DNA of 41,154 nucleotides from a virus, in the IMG/VR virus record IMGVR_UViG_3300046474_000594, positions 1-41,154 of that record; one strand, 5' to 3'. The position numbers and the translations under genes were made by a program. The notes below the pieces were generated by a model that saw only the letters and a list, made by a program, of their open reading frames with translations, had not been told where the DNA came from and did not search any database. Positions 3,227-33,870 of the stretch are shown here, piece after piece (position 1 is the stretch's first letter; every line of letters starts with the position of its first letter).

Positions 3227-4465
3227 TCAAATCAATTTGATACGGCCGGGATAGGCAATATTTCTTGGGCGCGTCTCGGTACCGCCTGTAGGCTTCGTGC
3301 CCGCTGAATTGGTGCCGTAATATTGCTCGTCGCCATACACGGCATTGCCCATCGCACCGGAACTGCGATCCATGTTGAATTCCATGGTGTGTGCGTGCGC
3401 CTGAATTTCCGGTGCTTGATTACTGCCAGGGACTCGGACTGGATCCACCCCACGATTTTCATCCAGCACTCGAAGGAACTCTCCGCGCCCCTCCGGCGCT
3501 CTGAACGTCTGATCGCCATCGCCTTCGGTCCAGCCGCCTTCGTTGCCGTCACGCAGCGCTTCGGGCACGTTCATACCGGACTGCTGAGCGTGATCCCACA
3601 GCCATGGCCAGTCGGTTCGCACCAGCACGGGACCGTTCAGGGGGCCATAGCCACCTGGATTGAACACGGTGGTGGTCTCGAACACCGGCCGTCCCAAAGG
3701 CGTGCTGTCGTGACGGCCCATCGGCCACCAGCTGCCTTGGCCATCACTGCGCAGATGCCACCAGTCGCCTGCGCCCATGAGGACAAAAAACGGATAGCCG
3801 TCAGGGTTTAAGTGGGTGTGGAATTTGATGGTGCCGCCGCCAGACGCGTTGATCAGCAGACGATGACCGCTGTTGTCGGTGCGCCGGACAATGATTTCCA
3901 AGACCTCGTCGGCGGCTGGCAATTCGAAGACACGCGGCGCCTGGCTCGCTTCCAGCAGTTGAAGGCCCCCAAGGTAGCGCCGGTCCAGCTCTGATCTGAC
4001 GTAGTCGATCACGAACGATCGTGTCGCGGCCACGACGTTGTTGTCGACGATCAGGATGACGTCGGCGGCGTTGCTGGTCTGGAAAATAGCTTTGACGTAG
4101 AACTGTTTGGTGGAGCCGCCTGGTAGCAGCGGTTTGATGCTGTCGGGGTATTTGCCGATGGCGTAGAGGATGCCGGTGTCGGTGTAGATGCCGACCTCGC
4201 GAATGGTCCAGCCGCCCACGTCCTCCGGTAACAGCGCCTCGGCCATGAGCCAGGAGGGGTTTTTGTCGTCCTGGCTTAATGCGTTCAAGGGCTGGCGATG
4301 GGTTTCGCGCAGCAGTTGGGTGGCTTCGGGACCTGGATTATAGGGAGCGCCGTTGCCGTCACCTACCGCCAGGTAGCTCAGGTTGATAGGGGTTTTCTCA
4401 GCCTTGGATTTGGCCTCATAGGCCAGCCCCGCTTGCGTGAGGACGGTGTAATACTCTTGGGCCAC
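3227..4465 (-). CDS. Tail fibre / tail-collar protein (gpH-like)
   Basis: 412 residues. The first 160 residues match the phage tail-collar fibre N-terminal domain (DUF3751) of P2 gpH and Mu gpS: MAQEYYTVLTQAGLAYEA, LSYLAVGDGNG, GGWTIREVGIYTDTG. This domain attaches to the baseplate. The C-terminal half is Gly/Trp-rich and ends with an HAHT-containing collar-like segment. It binds the host surface and sets host range. The stop of the gpI gene is directly adjacent. It is shorter than P2 gpH, so a compact fibre. Confidence 0.85.
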   Translation of the reverse strand: MAQEYYTVLTQAGLAYEAKSKAEKTPINLSYLAVGDGNGAPYNPGPEATQLLRETHRQPLNALSQDDKNPSWLMAEALLPEDVGGWTIREVGIYTDTGILYAIGKYPDSIKPLLPGGSTKQFYVKAIFQTSNAADVILIVDNNVVAATRSFVIDYVRSELDRRYLGGLQLLEASQAPRVFELPAADEVLEIIVRRTDNSGHRLLINASGGGTIKFHTHLNPDGYPFFVLMGAGDWWHLRSDGQGSWWPMGRHDSTPLGRPVFETTTVFNPGGYGPLNGPVLVRTDWPWLWDHAQQSGMNVPEALRDGNEGGWTEGDGDQTFRAPEGRGEFLRVLDENRGVDPVRVPGSNQAPEIQAHAHTMEFNMDRSSGAMGNAVYGDEQYYGTNSAGTKPTGGTETRPRNIAYPGRIKLI

Positions 4466-5101
4466 TTAAGCCTCCAAGGGATAGATGGTGGTGATTTCGG
4501 TGGTCACCAGGCCCGCACCGATGAACACGGTATCGGCCTGATCGACGCCTTCGGTTTGTAACGGATAGATCGTGGTCTGCTCGCCGGTCACCAGAGCTGC
4601 TGCGATGAACACCGGCGATTGGGTTTGCAGCGAAACGCTCAGCGCATCGAGGCGCGAACGTTTGTTTTTGTATTCGTTGATCAGCGCGACCAACGCGTCG
4701 AACGTGTCGGCGTCCAGGCCGCGAGTGGTGAGGCTGATGTCTACGCGAAAACGATAGGGCTGCCCGCCGTACTCGAACCACTCAGACACCGTGCCCTTGA
4801 GGTTGAGGGTTTCCAGCACCTGTTCTACCGCCCAGGGTGTGCCCTTGAACTGGTGCAGTTCGCTGGCGCGTTTGATCAGGCTACGTCGCTCCTGGTTGTT
4901 ACGGGTGAAACGCCATCCTTCCAGGCCCATGACGTGGAACTGGTCTGCCAGATGCGGCAGCAGCCGAGGCGACACGACGTCCACCAGGTAGACGAGCAAG
5001 GGGTTGAGGTCCAGGTTGTCGAACTCTTCCTGCAGCAGCTCGCAGAGGATCGCGAAGCGTTCGTCGCCCGCCAGTACGGCGGGCAGTCGCGGCTTAGCCA
5101 T
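4466..5101 (-). CDS. Tail protein I (P2 gpI / Mu gp48-like baseplate component)
   Basis: 211 residues. The first 150 match the P2 gpI family (LLPHLADQFHVMGLEGWRF; ELHQFKGTPWAVEQVLETL), which forms part of the baseplate wedge with W and J. It overlaps the end of J by 8 nt. Unusually, the C-terminus has two copies of a 20-residue block 28 residues apart (PVFIAAALVTGEQTTIYPL and TVFIGAGLVTTEITTIYPL), visible also as a DNA duplication at about 4479-4531 and 4562-4615. Confidence 0.85.
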   Translation of the reverse strand: MAKPRLPAVLAGDERFAILCELLQEEFDNLDLNPLLVYLVDVVSPRLLPHLADQFHVMGLEGWRFTRNNQERRSLIKRASELHQFKGTPWAVEQVLETLNLKGTVSEWFEYGGQPYRFRVDISLTTRGLDADTFDALVALINEYKNKRSRLDALSVSLQTQSPVFIAAALVTGEQTTIYPLQTEGVDQADTVFIGAGLVTTEITTIYPLEA

Positions 5102-8995: not shown

Positions 8996-9189
8996 GGCGG
9001 CAGGTCCTGGGCTGTGGGTTGTGTTTCGAGCATGGGAATGGCCAGGGTCAGGCCCGCAGGCAGTTCCGGGGTGAGCGGAATGTGAGGGTTGGCCAGGACG
9101 ATCGGCAGGTAGCGATGGGCGTCACCGTAATAGCGCCAGGCCAATTGGTCCCAGCGTTCGCCATCGGTGGTGATGTGGGTCAGTAGCAT
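8983..9189 (-). CDS. Tail protein X (P2 gpX-like, LysM-type)
   Basis: 68 residues. Short LysM-like domain (DGERWDQLAWRYYGDAHRYLPIVLANPHI ... LPAGLTLAIP) characteristic of P2 gpX, which acts at the tail terminus or hub. It lies between U and D as in P2 and shares one base with the U stop region. Confidence 0.9.
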   Translation of the reverse strand: MLLTHITTDGERWDQLAWRYYGDAHRYLPIVLANPHIPLTPELPAGLTLAIPMLETQPTAQDLPPWMR

Positions 9190-10070
9190 CAGGCTTTCCT
9201 GGTGAGGACTTCGGCGGCAAGCCCGGCCAGCCGGACGCTGGCGCCTTCCATCGTGCTCGCGGCTTGGGTAAGTAAGGCATGGGAGGCGCCGAACCTGTCG
9301 ACGATGTTCCCCAGATCGACAGGGTCAAGGCTGGCGCGAGCGCCCATCACGCTGCCCAGTAAATCCTCGCCCAGTCGCGACAGGTCGGCGCCGCCTTCGA
9401 GCAGGCCGGCTGCGGTTTTGAGGCCTTGCAGCGGCTCCAGCGCGCGGGCGGTAATGCCCAGAAGCTGCGGCACTTGGCCGAGGATCGAGCCGGCGTCGCC
9501 ACCTTTGGCTGCGTCGTAGACGTTTTGCCCGGCGCGGATGATGTTGCTGGCGGTTTTAGCGTGGCCGATCAGCTGTTGCGTGGTGCTGGGCAGTGGGGAC
9601 AGTTTTGAGATCAGGTCGGGCGAGCCTTGCGCGGCCGCTTTGGTGCCACTGAGCGCTGCGTCGAGCAATCCCGCACGCGTGACCTTGCGCGTCGAGGGGC
9701 CGGTGTATTCACGCAAGCTGATCTGAACGGTCGCGGACTGGGTTTGACCGGTGGCGGTGGCGCGGCGGATGGCGTTGCTCATGTCGGTGATGACATGGGG
9801 GCCCAGATAGTCGCCGCTGCCCATGACCAGCGCCAAGGGTTGGTGATTGCTTTTGGCTTGGCGCAGTGCGCGCAATCGCGCTTCGGGATCGCCCAGTACG
9901 GGGTGCAATTCGAGTGTCAGGCTGTACTCATCCAGCCCTTCGCCGATCCACTCCAGCCGGGGCTTGCCGGCAATACGTGCGTGTTCGGCCCACTCGGCAC
10001 TGCTGCGCCATTCAAGTCCGGATATCCCGCCGGTTACGGTGAATTCAATATCGCCCAGGATCGCGAACAT
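9189..10070 (-). CDS. Tail protein U (P2 gpU-like)
   Basis: 293 residues. The first 130 residues match P2 gpU (MFAILGDIEFTVTGGISGLEWR ... HPVLGDPEARLRALRQAKSNHQPLALVMGSGDYLGPHVI). The remaining 160 residues are an Ala/Gly/Leu-rich helical extension not present in P2 U but usual in Mu-like relatives, where it may replace the DNA-circularisation protein. One base overlaps the tape measure stop. Confidence 0.85.
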   Translation of the reverse strand: MFAILGDIEFTVTGGISGLEWRSSAEWAEHARIAGKPRLEWIGEGLDEYSLTLELHPVLGDPEARLRALRQAKSNHQPLALVMGSGDYLGPHVITDMSNAIRRATATGQTQSATVQISLREYTGPSTRKVTRAGLLDAALSGTKAAAQGSPDLISKLSPLPSTTQQLIGHAKTASNIIRAGQNVYDAAKGGDAGSILGQVPQLLGITARALEPLQGLKTAAGLLEGGADLSRLGEDLLGSVMGARASLDPVDLGNIVDRFGASHALLTQAASTMEGASVRLAGLAAEVLTRKA

Positions 10071-30936: not shown

Positions 30937-31151
30937 GGCGCGTCGGGCTGGCGTGGGTTTTGTTTGATCAGGCGTGTGCAGAACAACAGGAAGATGAGCA
31001 CGCTGTTGAGGCTGGCATAGGCTCTGGGGCTCAGTTGCGGTTGCCACAGTGGCAGCAGTTCAAGCTGGGCAAAACCGAGCACGGCGATCAGCACGCTCAG
31101 CTGAACGCTGTAGAGGCGATAGCACGACCGCCAGTGCGGGATCAGTTTCAT
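30933..31151 (-). CDS. Holin-like small membrane protein
   Basis: 72 residues with two membrane segments (LSVLIAVLGFAQLELLPLW and ASLNSVLIFLLFCTRLI) and a basic C-terminus. It lies between endolysin and Rz, the usual holin position, and is of the small DUF7940-like phage type. It overlaps the endolysin gene by 4 nt. Confidence 0.75.
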   Translation of the reverse strand: MKLIPHWRSCYRLYSVQLSVLIAVLGFAQLELLPLWQPQLSPRAYASLNSVLIFLLFCTRLIKQNPRQPDAP

Positions 31152-31657
31152 GCGGCACCGTCGCTTGTGCCGTGGACTGCACCGCGCTCGATGCCGGCCA
31201 AGACCAACCCGTCAGCAATGATGGCTTGCCCGTACCACGCGCCTGCCGGTAGTGGACCTGGGCCGTTTTCGTGGCGAACGATGCCCTCAACCAGCGTGTA
31301 AAGGGTGTGGAAATCGTAAACGTCGATGTGGGGGCTTTCGGCATCGATGCCCAGGGCTTGTGCGACCGCACGTGTGTAAGCGTCGGTGTTGTTTTCGGAC
31401 GGTGGCGCCCAACGCTCGATGATTTCACGCACGCTGTCGATGCGGCTGCCGTCGCGGGCCTGGCGTTTGTCCTGGTAGGTGATGAGCACGCGAGCGATTG
31501 CACGGATGCCCCAGCGCGGGCTGGTGAACTGGACAAATTGGGGGTCGGTCTGGTTGACCGCCTGGCCTTGCCAGCGCACGCCTAGGGCATGGCGGATGTT
31601 GCCGGGGTTGAAGTTGCGGATGCCGCGAGGCGGCTCAGATCTGAATATGGGTCGCAT
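31148..31657 (-). CDS. Endolysin (lytic transglycosylase-like muramidase)
   Basis: 169 residues, no signal peptide. RGIRNFNPGNIRHALGVRWQG is the P5-type structural muramidase/phage transglycosylase signature; PRWGIRAIARVLITYQ and ERWAPPSENNTDAYTRAVAQ are further family blocks. AGGAGG lies 9 nt before the ATG. First gene of the late operon, downstream of late element D. Confidence 0.88.
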   Translation of the reverse strand: MRPIFRSEPPRGIRNFNPGNIRHALGVRWQGQAVNQTDPQFVQFTSPRWGIRAIARVLITYQDKRQARDGSRIDSVREIIERWAPPSENNTDAYTRAVAQALGIDAESPHIDVYDFHTLYTLVEGIVRHENGPGPLPAGAWYGQAIIADGLVLAGIERGAVHGTSDGAA

Positions 31658-31740: not shown

Positions 31741-31763
31741 GGCTTTTAATCGGGTTTAAAGAG
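31741..31763 (-). promoter_or_regulatory. Late element D (promoter or activator site of the lysis-packaging block)
   Basis: Identical copy of the 23-bp late element, 84 nt upstream of the endolysin start, overlapping the last codons of the 2-TM protein gene. In the leader between them an 8-bp GC stem (GCCGCC-GATCAT-GGCGGC type, 31709-31730) would be transcribed. Confidence 0.7.
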
Positions 31764-32184
31764 GTCGTTTTTGCGCGGATTTTTTGTAACGGATCGCCTG
31801 ATTGATGCCTTTGAGGTCATCGTCCAGTTCAACGAGGGTGGCTTGGGCGTTGACGCGCAGCCGATGCAATCCGAAGGCTAACGCCAGCGTGCTGACTGCG
31901 AAGGCGGCGAGAATTGCCATTTTATCCGGGGTGATTGCGCCGACCAGTCCGCCTGATTGAATCATGTACCCACCCCAGGCACCCATTAGCGCGAGGACGA
32001 TCAACAGCCCTGCTGCGTAGCGGTTGACGTATTGGGCGAACCATACCTTGGTGCGCTCTTTTGCGTAGGCGGATTTGAGGTGTTTGAGTTCCTGGAGGCT
32101 GTGATGGTCCCACTTTGATTGGTTGTTATGGATGTTGCCTGCTGCAACCTGGCCTACAGGGGCCTGGAATATCTGACTTGGCAT
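31756..32184 (-). CDS. 2-TM membrane protein with N-terminal VGQVAxGNIxN motif (copy 2)
   Basis: 142 residues. N-terminus IFQAPVGQVAAGNIHNN, then a charged helix (LQELKHLKSAYAKERTKVWFAQY), two membrane segments (AAGLLIVLALMGAWGGYMI and MAILAAFAVSTLALAFGL) and a C-terminal helix facing the cytoplasm (RVNAQATLVELDDDLKGINQ). The layout resembles SLATT-type 2-TM proteins, but I cannot confirm that family. AGGAG precedes the ATG. Its N-terminal motif is shared with the neighbour and with the repressor. Last gene of the lysogenic group. Confidence 0.75.
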   Translation of the reverse strand: MPSQIFQAPVGQVAAGNIHNNQSKWDHHSLQELKHLKSAYAKERTKVWFAQYVNRYAAGLLIVLALMGAWGGYMIQSGGLVGAITPDKMAILAAFAVSTLALAFGLHRLRVNAQATLVELDDDLKGINQAIRYKKSAQKRPL

Positions 32185-32198
32185 GGGTGTCGCTCCTG

Positions 32199-32591
32199 TT
32201 AAATCCAGCTCCGGCTGTGTTGGTAGGTTTCGATGTATTGGATGTGGTCGCGATACGCGTGGACCAGAGGGCCGTATTTTCTCTGGATCGGGATGAAGAA
32301 AAAATAAGGCAGTAGCAATCCTGTGAGCAGGGTCACGAACAGGGCCCAGGCGTGCTGCATGGCAAGGCCGGTGAAGATCTCTATGAACATGATGATGGCG
32401 CCTGTGACCATCCAGCCGACGATAGGGTTGTAGAGAATGCGCTTGCGAGCATCTGCCAGGCGTTCGATCAGGTGAAGACGCAAGGTCTCTACCTCTTGGC
32501 GGGTGAGAATGGTCAGGTCATTGACCCCGTAGTTGTTAATGTTGCCCCCCGCTACCTGGCCTACGGTGTTATGGAAATTTTGGTGGTTCAT
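32199..32591 (-). CDS. 2-TM membrane protein with N-terminal VGQVAxGNINN motif (copy 1)
   Basis: 130 residues from the ATG at 32591, which overlaps the lipoprotein stop (ATGA). N-terminus NFHNTVGQVAGGNINNYG, a charged helix (LTRQEVETLRLHLIERLADARKRI), then two membrane segments (IVGWMVTGAIIMFIEIFTGLA and WALFVTLLTGLLLPYFFFIPI) and a short C-terminal helix. It has the same architecture as the next gene but little other similarity, so the pair may form a hetero-oligomer. Confidence 0.75.
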   Translation of the reverse strand: MNHQNFHNTVGQVAGGNINNYGVNDLTILTRQEVETLRLHLIERLADARKRILYNPIVGWMVTGAIIMFIEIFTGLAMQHAWALFVTLLTGLLLPYFFFIPIQRKYGPLVHAYRDHIQYIETYQHSRSWI

Positions 32592-32995
32592 GGACGTGCC
32601 TCGGCCAGTGGCAGGCTCAGTTGGCCTTGCGGGGTGTCGAGTTGGTCCAGGCAAACGGACTTGCACGCCTGTTTCTCGATGAAGAGTGTTTTGCCCGCCG
32701 AATCGATTTCGAGGTAACAGGTGTGCCCGGCCGCTTTGTAGGCATCGGGCAGGCGCGCGGTGTCCGGGATGTCGAAGACGATGGCAGTTCTGAATTGTTG
32801 TTGCACACGGGTGTTGGCAAATTGCGAGCTGTAGGTATCCAGCCCCGGGCACGCCTGCCGGACGGCAGGTAGCGCGGTATTAACCTTGGGGTCATCGGTC
32901 ACGACAGTGAAAGTAGTGCTTTGCGGCTGATCTTTGTCACACCCCATCAGGGTCATAAACGATAGGCCAAGCAGTGTTGAGGTCCTTGTTTTCAT
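32588..32995 (-). CDS. Predicted lipoprotein in the immunity operon
   Basis: 135 residues from the ATG at 32995 (AAAGGAG 6 nt upstream). Signal peptide with lipobox-like LMGC (Cys about residue 17), a short linker and a globular domain with four further Cys (ACPGL, TCYLE, ACKSVC) suggesting disulphides outside the cytoplasm. No family recognised. It is coupled to the 2-TM gene. Surface lipoproteins in this position are often superinfection-exclusion factors, which is inference only. Confidence 0.75.
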   Translation of the reverse strand: MKTRTSTLLGLSFMTLMGCDKDQPQSTTFTVVTDDPKVNTALPAVRQACPGLDTYSSQFANTRVQQQFRTAIVFDIPDTARLPDAYKAAGHTCYLEIDSAGKTLFIEKQACKSVCLDQLDTPQGQLSLPLAEARP

Positions 32996-33067
32996 AGGTT
33001 CTCCTTTTTTTAGATGAAATGGCCCTGCAACGATTAGTCGTGAAATCGCATGCAGCAGGCCGCCACG

Positions 33068-33087
33068 CCAGAACGGTTGGGTTCTGG
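33068..33087 (-). terminator. Hairpin between repressor and lipoprotein genes
   Basis: CCAGAAC / GTTCTGG, 7-bp perfect stem with a 6-nt loop, about 65 nt beyond the repressor stop. No T-run follows, so it may attenuate rather than end transcription. The rest of 32996-33151 shows no gene. Confidence 0.4.
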
Positions 33088-33151
33088 GCACGGTGTTCCT
33101 TGCGGAAGGTGGGGCTGGCGGATCGGCTCGCGGGTGGGTGCCGAGGGGCTA

Positions 33152-33589
33152 TCAGTGCTTGTTCTTACGCTGGCGCATGTCGAACGTCACCCCCTGCTGG
33201 TTATTGATGTCGCCTTGAGCCACTTGGCCGACATTACCTTCGAAGGTCTGGCCAGGGTTGCTGGCGGTCTCTTCGGTGTACAGCGCGCGGGTGACCGCGT
33301 TCTGCACAGGTTGGGGAGCCGCCCGGAATAATTCGAGCAGGCGGATTTCTTCTGACGTGATCGCACCGGCCGGGCGTTGGCCGGTTAGCACGTAATGGCT
33401 ATCAACGCCGAGCGGTATCAATCTGGCGATTAAATCAGCGGTGCATTTCTGACGTCCCGAGACTACGTCCTTGAGACGTTGGGGGCTTGATTCCTGAGCA
33501 GCGCGGGACGCTGCGGCAAGGCTCATCCCACAGCGGTCAATCTCTTCGCGCAATCTTACGTGTATATATTCCACCGCATCGCTTGACAT
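33152..33589 (-). CDS. Phage repressor (CI-like HTH protein) with C-terminal VGQVAxGDINN motif
   Basis: 145 residues. The N-terminal 70 residues form an XRE-type HTH (SLAAASRAAQESSPQRLKDVVSGRQKC, then LIARLIPLGVDSHYVLTGQRP, typical of Pseudomonas prophage repressors). A short linker region (LLELFRAAPQPVQNAVTRAL) is followed by FEGNVGQVAQGDINNQQGVTF near the C-terminus, the motif that also starts both 2-TM proteins downstream. There is no peptidase domain, so induction would not be by RecA self-cleavage. Divergent from the Cro-like gene, with the operators between and inside its first codons. Confidence 0.85.
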   Translation of the reverse strand: MSSDAVEYIHVRLREEIDRCGMSLAAASRAAQESSPQRLKDVVSGRQKCTADLIARLIPLGVDSHYVLTGQRPAGAITSEEIRLLELFRAAPQPVQNAVTRALYTEETASNPGQTFEGNVGQVAQGDINNQQGVTFDMRQRKNKH

Positions 33590-33657: not shown

Positions 33658-33870
33658 ATGGCCACCCATGCCAAAGCCCTCACCGCTGACCAGGTGAAGG
33701 TTAAATTCCGCCAAACCGGCACTACGTTCACCGACTGGGCAACGCTGCACGGTTACAGCCGCAACGAGGTGTATCGCGTGCTCAACGGGCAAGCGAAAGC
33801 ACATTACGGAAAGGCCCACGACATTGCTGTGAAGCTGGGCCTCAAGCTCAGCGATACGGTTGCAGCATGA
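33658..33870 (+). CDS. Cro/Ner-like DNA-binding protein
   Basis: 70 residues; AAAGGAG precedes the ATG. The HTH is TTFTDWATLHGYSRNEVYRVLNGQAKA followed by GKAHDIAVKLGLK, the pattern of phage-encoded Cro-like regulators of the Mu type. It is the first early gene and is expected to shut off the repressor promoter and the early promoter later in infection. Confidence 0.8.
   Translation: MATHAKALTADQVKVKFRQTGTTFTDWATLHGYSRNEVYRVLNGQAKAHYGKAHDIAVKLGLKLSDTVAA

Follow-up and report, generated by a model that had tools for sequence, protein, structure and literature searches.

In bacterial and fungal amyloid signalling, it is a rule that the products of two neighbouring genes carry matched short terminal motifs and that one of them is directed to the membrane (PMC7889193, PMC8086366). 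The BASS 1-10/NLR-Bell pairs are of this kind, with many motif families, each matched within its own locus, and a composition rich in G, N and Q. In temperate phages, a membrane protein gene is expressed in the lysogen alongside the repressor or close to it at lambda cI-rexA-rexB and in RexAB-type defence, including RexABpp of P. putida (PMC12894663) and the Sbash gp30/31 and CarolAnn systems (PMC6426596). Small phage proteins that act on the repressor are represented by 434 Hex, which is made from the repressor transcript, and by the Gifsy/P22-type antirepressors. Finally, a study of the B3-like phage Fc02 reports lysogen RNA-seq that includes the gene after the repressor, e4, which is transcribed with the repressor, is accessory and absent from some beetreviruses, and has no assigned function (PMC9936078).

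Here we compare with these systems a stretch of viral DNA of 41,154 nucleotides (IMG/VR record IMGVR_UViG_3300046474_000594, positions 1 to 41,154; hereafter the window), in which a phage repressor and two membrane proteins from one gene block carry a common terminal motif.

Gene block at the lysis/lysogeny switch

Over the whole 41 kb, the gene organisation is Mu-like and the record is read as a temperate phage. The plus strand carries a Ner-like HTH gene (33658..33870; phrog_925, E 4e-27), divergent from the repressor and marking the lysis/lysogeny switch, as well as genes for a transcriptional regulator (phrog_1368) and a transposase-like protein. The minus strand carries an endolysin and further late genes. 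Four genes that the original prediction had placed in one orientation were all found on this strand, in the order repressor, lipoprotein, 2TM-A and 2TM-B, and are followed by the endolysin gene (31148..31657, minus strand; phrog_873, E 4e-55), which adjoins the block and sets the limit of the accessory genes. The stop codon of the lipoprotein gene overlaps the start codon of 2TM-A (ATGA), and 14 nt separate 2TM-A from 2TM-B. Despite a gap of approximately 156 nt (32996-33151) between the repressor and lipoprotein genes, one transcript likely runs across both. Related phages have the gene of an ORF6C-type partner at this site, and the gap is possibly a remnant from the loss of such a gene.

The repressor gene (33152..33589, minus strand) encodes an immunity repressor-like HTH protein of 145 aa with a motif in its C-terminal tail. 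The HTH is diverged (Pfam HTH_31, 15 bits, under the cut-off of 27), and relatives of the protein pass the Pfam cut-off (HTH_3, 30.4 bits). Its N-terminal half matched phrog_17822 (E 7e-6), and tblastn identified a homologue in the repressor of Komp_PAO1_1 (E 3e-10) and in the 'immunity repressor' of Carl1 (E 2e-3). The combination of an N-terminal Cro/CI-type HTH with a divergent ner/cro-like neighbour is that of CI/C2-like repressors. We found no S24 peptidase/oligomerisation domain of the LexA/lambda-CI type in the window repressor or its relatives, for which Pfam gave HTH families only, and the window protein stops approximately 30 aa past the linker. Since these repressors are short and have no recognised S24 domain, RecA-driven self-cleavage is unlikely. 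A related repressor in the Acidovorax phage Acica (L057, 2492-3160) has a longer C-terminal half, S24/LexA-type by eye, and neither a tail motif nor a partner; by this comparison, with the domain judged by eye, the tail motif may replace an S24/LexA-type domain.

A lipoprotein gene lies between the repressor and 2-TM genes, as had been predicted (32588..32995, minus strand; 135 aa; phrog_10002 in its C-terminal part, E 2e-13). Direct reading identified a signal peptide and a lipobox ending in Cys (MKTRTSTLLGLSFMTLMGC; lipobox LMGC), the marks of a bacterial lipoprotein. Its domain was also found at KP12 and other loci, and in other phages is fused to a motif-bearing membrane partner. In Klebsiella phage KP12 (L058, 2983-3516), the periplasmic/lipoprotein domain directly follows a motif-less repressor, so that this domain can occur without the motif system.

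In 2TM-A (32199..32591, minus strand; 130 aa), the N-terminal motif precedes a helical hairpin that contains the two TM helices; the AlphaFold model has helices at residues 31-53, 56-74 and 81-126, and pLDDT <50 over motif residues 1-17. 2TM-B (31756..32184, minus strand; 142 aa) likewise has an N-terminal motif and two TM helices. From the positive-inside rule and the charge distribution, both termini of both proteins are predicted to be cytosolic, on the same side as the repressor. Neither contains an ORF6C domain, and Pfam, PHROGs, PADLOC, a PDB sequence search and Foldseek against the PDB returned no family for them, and a tblastn search of the phage collection with 2TM-A did not assign one either.

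The shared motif within the window

The repressor C-terminus (QTFEGNVGQVAQGDINN; 33200..33250, minus strand) and the N-termini of 2TM-A (QNFHNTVGQVAGGNINN; 32532..32582, minus strand) and 2TM-B (QIFQAPVGQVAAGNIHN; 32125..32175, minus strand) share the motif, read directly from the sequence and by alignment against shuffled tails. This confirms the central observation of the original prediction, together with its statement that the remainder of the two 2-TM proteins differs, their bodies being only weakly similar (score reached by 10 of 500 shuffles). Among 805 six-frame segments, the best matches to the repressor tail outside the repressor were 2TM-B (score 62) and 2TM-A (score 55), and neither score was reached in 5000 shuffles of the tail. 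This direct comparison is the valid test for the window; adjacency tests across loci labelled it 'tail only', as the stop-to-stop segments on which they operate start far upstream of the true start codons. The third-best match, a 33-residue segment at 9174-9272 on the plus strand (score 40), is probably due to chance.

At the residues shared by the three motif copies, 17 of 32 codon pairs were the same, against 14.6 expected under independence. As the codons are no more alike than expected, the similarity is at the protein level and not that of a recent DNA duplication, and an origin at the DNA level, be it a shared operator or recent duplication, is rejected on this approximately chance agreement.

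Recurrence with other motifs in other phages

Further Mu-like phages, and P2-like ones, show the same layout of an HTH repressor with a tail motif and then a membrane protein with a head motif. The motif types vary among phages and match inside each, and include VGQVAxGDI, VAGRDF, GGVAGRDI, GNAAGRDI, SGxGIxQV and others. In B3, the repressor tail ISVTGDGNRTAGRDFHERKE is matched by VNIEVTGSNNIVAGRDFIEN in the next gene, which encodes a 2-TM protein, and Ps59 is similar; tail and head are LNISGGNNRIAGRDYNE and VNSNGSNNRVAGRDFHE in Escherichia phage 520873, VASGSGITQVG and MSASGFGIIQVAG in KS10, and FEGANIGQHVTGDV and FDGEIGQVAGGDV in Carl1, whose type is shared by KS5 and AP3. The motif partner gene of phage 520873 (L054, 2851-3900) is frameshifted and unannotated, and intact relatives (L165 and similar) are common. 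Relatives of the B3 partner in the phage collection were confined to B3 and Ps59, as were full-length relatives of the B3 repressor. No motif protein follows the tail-less repressors of KL3, Menos, Momento, Mana, PM105, Ps60, Dobby, JBD25 and KP12.

An exact degenerate pattern of the motif was found in 16 viral contigs and, within 84,980 species genomes, in five contigs (four Pseudomonas and one Cellvibrionaceae MAG); a looser pattern was found in 35 viral stretches. The carriers that we read were repressor C-termini, 2-TM N-termini and the N-termini of other partners, with one exception, tape-measure-like (L027). In the Cellvibrionaceae MAG (L024, 4648-5307, a short piece), two adjoining genes both start with the motif, outside Pseudomonas phages. 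Most of the other partners are proteins of approximately 200 aa that contain an anti-repressor/ORF6C-like domain and, in many cases, a TM helix at the C-terminus (phrog_5825, phrog_6521), and otherwise similar ORF6C-type partners bear different heads (VGQVA, VAGRDF or SGxGIxQV). At one locus (L120, ~3850-5050), GGVAGRDI is common to the repressor tail, a protein of approximately 210 aa and a 2-TM protein, a three-way match that parallels that of the window with GGVAGRDI in place of GQVAxGDI. The partners at L088, L120 and L137 have a second G/N-rich stretch (e.g. IGAIQGGQNIIGHKGDIHL) after the N-terminal motif. In loci of the Komp_PAO1_1 type (L045, L080-L083), the tail motif is present and the next gene, encoding approximately 200 aa with a signal peptide, is without it; these tails are either orphans or have their partner encoded at another place in the genome. 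One matched pair of repressor and partner has a match in 517 of 5426 complete E. coli genomes, in 511 of them over most of its length, and the matching pairs are annotated merely as 'hypothetical protein / helix-turn-helix domain-containing protein'.

Co-occurrence and covariation of tails and heads

We fetched 80 loci with repressor homologues, and used 60 non-redundant loci for tests. When each tail was aligned to the frames downstream of it, and shuffled tails served as control, most loci with a motif gave a match, and the motif types vary together. The search across repressors and small membrane proteins that the original prediction had called for revealed co-occurrence of tail and downstream motifs over these 60 loci (24/4/7/25, Fisher p=6.7e-7), with the motifs of each locus judged solely against other loci; the contrary outcome that it had named, a generic low-complexity sequence with no co-occurrence, was not borne out. 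On this co-occurrence and the shuffled-tail test, we reject chance or low complexity as the source of the match. In seven of the 60 loci, the scoring detected a downstream motif and no tail motif, a count tempered by the tail motifs that are visible by eye in at least L088, L089, L094, L112 and L137. A search with the partner body identified 72 loci, all of them (72/72) with an HTH repressor upstream and 71/72 with a tail match (34 unique pairs), in a set that avoids motif bias and is dominated by related enterobacterial prophage pairs. The A2-based repressor set was retrieved in part by the motif pattern, and motif prevalence there is inflated.

Within the 60 non-redundant loci, own pairs scored 38.3 on average and pairs across loci 25.6 (permutation p<=5e-5). 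Once the similarity of the HTH and of the partner body is removed, tail similarity still tracks head similarity (partial Mantel r=0.66, p=2e-4), a covariation that could in part be joint inheritance of the motif pair, which is not fully separable from selection for binding.

The covariation bears on whether the motif is read by phage proteins at all, or is a localisation or turnover signal for a host factor, such as a protease adaptor or membrane docking factor. The motif is short, G/N-rich and predicted to be disordered alone, as such a signal might be, and in phage Mu repressor proteolysis is controlled by a C-terminal tail. A host signal would, however, be expected to be uniform within a host group, whereas phages that share a host carry motifs that differ from phage to phage and agree inside each phage. 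The motif is also C-terminal on one protein and N-terminal on the other, and motif-less repressors are mostly without partners. A host degron or localisation tag is thus disfavoured by differing motifs that match inside each locus, and we regard it as highly improbable.

Natural fusions and the ORF6C-type partner

We additionally identified proteins in which parts of the system are joined in one chain. The 'CI-like repressor' of Pseudomonas phage Gregale (phrog_17822) consists of HTH_3 and ORF6C, both over their Pfam cut-offs (ORF6C, PF10552: 25.9 bits against a gathering score of 22), and its relatives (L146-L148) keep one motif-like segment, ENQINGNVSNAVIASSGSVVHQIN, between the domains. Stand-alone partners scored 15.7 and 17.7 bits against the same family, under the 22-bit gathering score. 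A second fusion (L107, 3976-4929) comprises the motif, an ORF6C-like domain, a TM segment and the domain of the window lipoprotein; its AlphaFold model comprises a low-confidence motif region and a confidently predicted helical domain (34-152), after which a helix occupies the position expected for the TM segment and an alpha/beta domain, likewise confident, follows. The best viral Foldseek match was an ORF6C protein (prob 1.00, E 3e-3), and Foldseek against the PDB returned nothing significant. As read from their sequences, the fusions tie the kinds of pieces found in the block of the window, repressor, membrane partner and periplasmic domain, into one unit.

The HTH-ORF6C fusion favours a split regulator, in which the partner is the second half of the repressor, supplying an oligomerisation or operator-cooperativity domain in trans, with membrane anchoring secondary. 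The single chain of Gregale, the one motif-like segment retained between domains in fused forms, and the shortness of the split repressors, which are without a C-terminal domain of their own, are consistent with this. Most partners, however, have TM helices, the 2-TM partners have no ORF6C domain, and short motif-less repressors occur without any partner, and we consider a split repressor improbable.

By sequence similarity, the domain of the commonest partner resembles anti-repressor PHROGs, and control of the repressor by the partner is favoured for this reason. In the window phage, the ORF6C-like partner gene is absent, and the two 2-TM proteins and a free lipoprotein domain remain. The anti-repressor argument is therefore not directly applicable to its 2-TM proteins, as these have no ORF6C domain.

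Comparison with described systems

Like the BASS pairs, the loci described here have short G/N/Q-rich motifs of many families, matched within a locus between the products of adjacent genes, one of them membrane-directed. The sensor-side protein is a phage repressor, and the motif is C-terminal on the repressor and N-terminal on the membrane protein, whereas Bell proteins bear it C-terminally. No Pfam match to an NLR (NB-ARC/NACHT) or Bell effector was found in the window genes, and the genes neighbouring the window block and related loci are phage regulatory, lysis and transposition genes. Compared with four published peptides, and not with BASS profiles, the motif tails showed a weak and mixed likeness: tails and shuffled tails scored 24.3 and 18.9 against a Methanothrix peptide, 28.8 and 23.8 against Nectria sigma, 19.3 and 18.8 against Frankia BASS3, and 26.4 and 24.0 against a non-aggregating peptide. 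With the NLR and Bell parts absent and this peptide likeness weak and mixed, we do not assign the locus to BASS.

Gene position favours a Rex-like link. The membrane partners would then be defence effectors, causing an ion leak or forming a channel, that are kept inactive by the repressor or triggered via the repressor as guard, and an invader that disturbs the repressor would free or nucleate the effector, leading to cell death or a refractory state. The position is that of lambda cI-rexA-rexB and P. putida PP_3896-rexAB (PMC12894663), and also of CarolAnn/Sbash (PMC6426596); the 2-TM proteins are small, the genes are accessory and variable among close relatives, and the layout resembles amyloid-signalling receptor/effector pairs (PMC7889193). 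Against this, PADLOC gave no match, no RexA-like (DUF4747) or 4-TM RexB-like protein was recognised, and the partners have one or two TM helices, the commonest combining an ORF6C-like, anti-repressor-like domain with a single TM helix and no obvious pore. We found no sequence link between the window genes and Rex loci, and no motif common to the repressor and RexA/B is known from Rex systems. Rex-like exclusion is an unlikely, though not negligible, explanation, and membership of the RexAB type is rejected, as the defining RexA-like sensor and 4-TM channel are absent.

The ORF6C-like domain, through its resemblance to anti-repressor PHROGs, also recalls Hex and the antirepressors, for which the accessible descriptions mention no shared terminal motif. 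In those descriptions, the Gifsy antirepressors are soluble and encoded outside the immunity region, and Hex acts on RecA-driven cleavage, whereas the repressors studied here have no recognised S24 domain. We treat Rex, Hex and the antirepressors as functional analogues only. Fc02 e4, compared via the B3 and Ps59 genes in the same position, differs in that the accessible part of its description mentions no shared motif (PMC9936078). Our search of the open literature revealed no account of the motif or of a repressor-membrane link of this sort, and a literature search for the motif strings returned no relevant paper.

A proposed docking module between repressor and membrane

Co-occurrence, within-locus covariation and natural fusions strongly support the proposal, made in the original prediction, of a docking or oligomerisation tag that links the repressor to membrane proteins. 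Physical binding of the repressor to its partners is on this evidence quite probable. That the shared sequence is a cognate assembly module, which co-assembles the repressor with the membrane-anchored partners of the same lysogenic block, we hold to be evenly balanced, and signalling from the membrane to the repressor falls slightly short of that.

In such a module, the motif would enable a repressor without an oligomerisation or peptidase domain of its own to co-assemble with its partners, the commonest of which comprise a motif, an ORF6C-like domain and a TM helix, sometimes with a periplasmic domain. We infer that the motif folds only upon assembly, and our guess is that tail and head form a homotypic beta-type assembly. 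Co-assembly would bring the repressor to the membrane partners, and part of its pool would be tethered at the inner membrane, where the state of the partner would alter repressor activity. Events at the membrane or envelope, such as the entry of phage DNA or a collapse of the membrane potential, might then shift repressor activity without RecA-driven cleavage. Superinfection exclusion, or a depolarising sensor that answers repressor loss, as had been envisaged for the window, may be proposed by analogy only.

These data suggest an unrecognised physical link between prophage dormancy and the cell membrane in many temperate phages. More tentatively, there may be a large unrecognised class of phages in which diversified cognate motifs, possibly amyloid-like, couple a repressor without a cleavage domain to inner-membrane and periplasmic sensors, giving transmembrane control of immunity. 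The diverse motif types resemble a natural set of specific protein tags, and the occurrence of the system in E. coli genomes makes it directly testable in laboratory strains. The link bears on how prophages with an uncleavable repressor sense the time to leave: a matched motif that connects repressor and membrane protein would, if true, give them a new path to induction or to exclusion.
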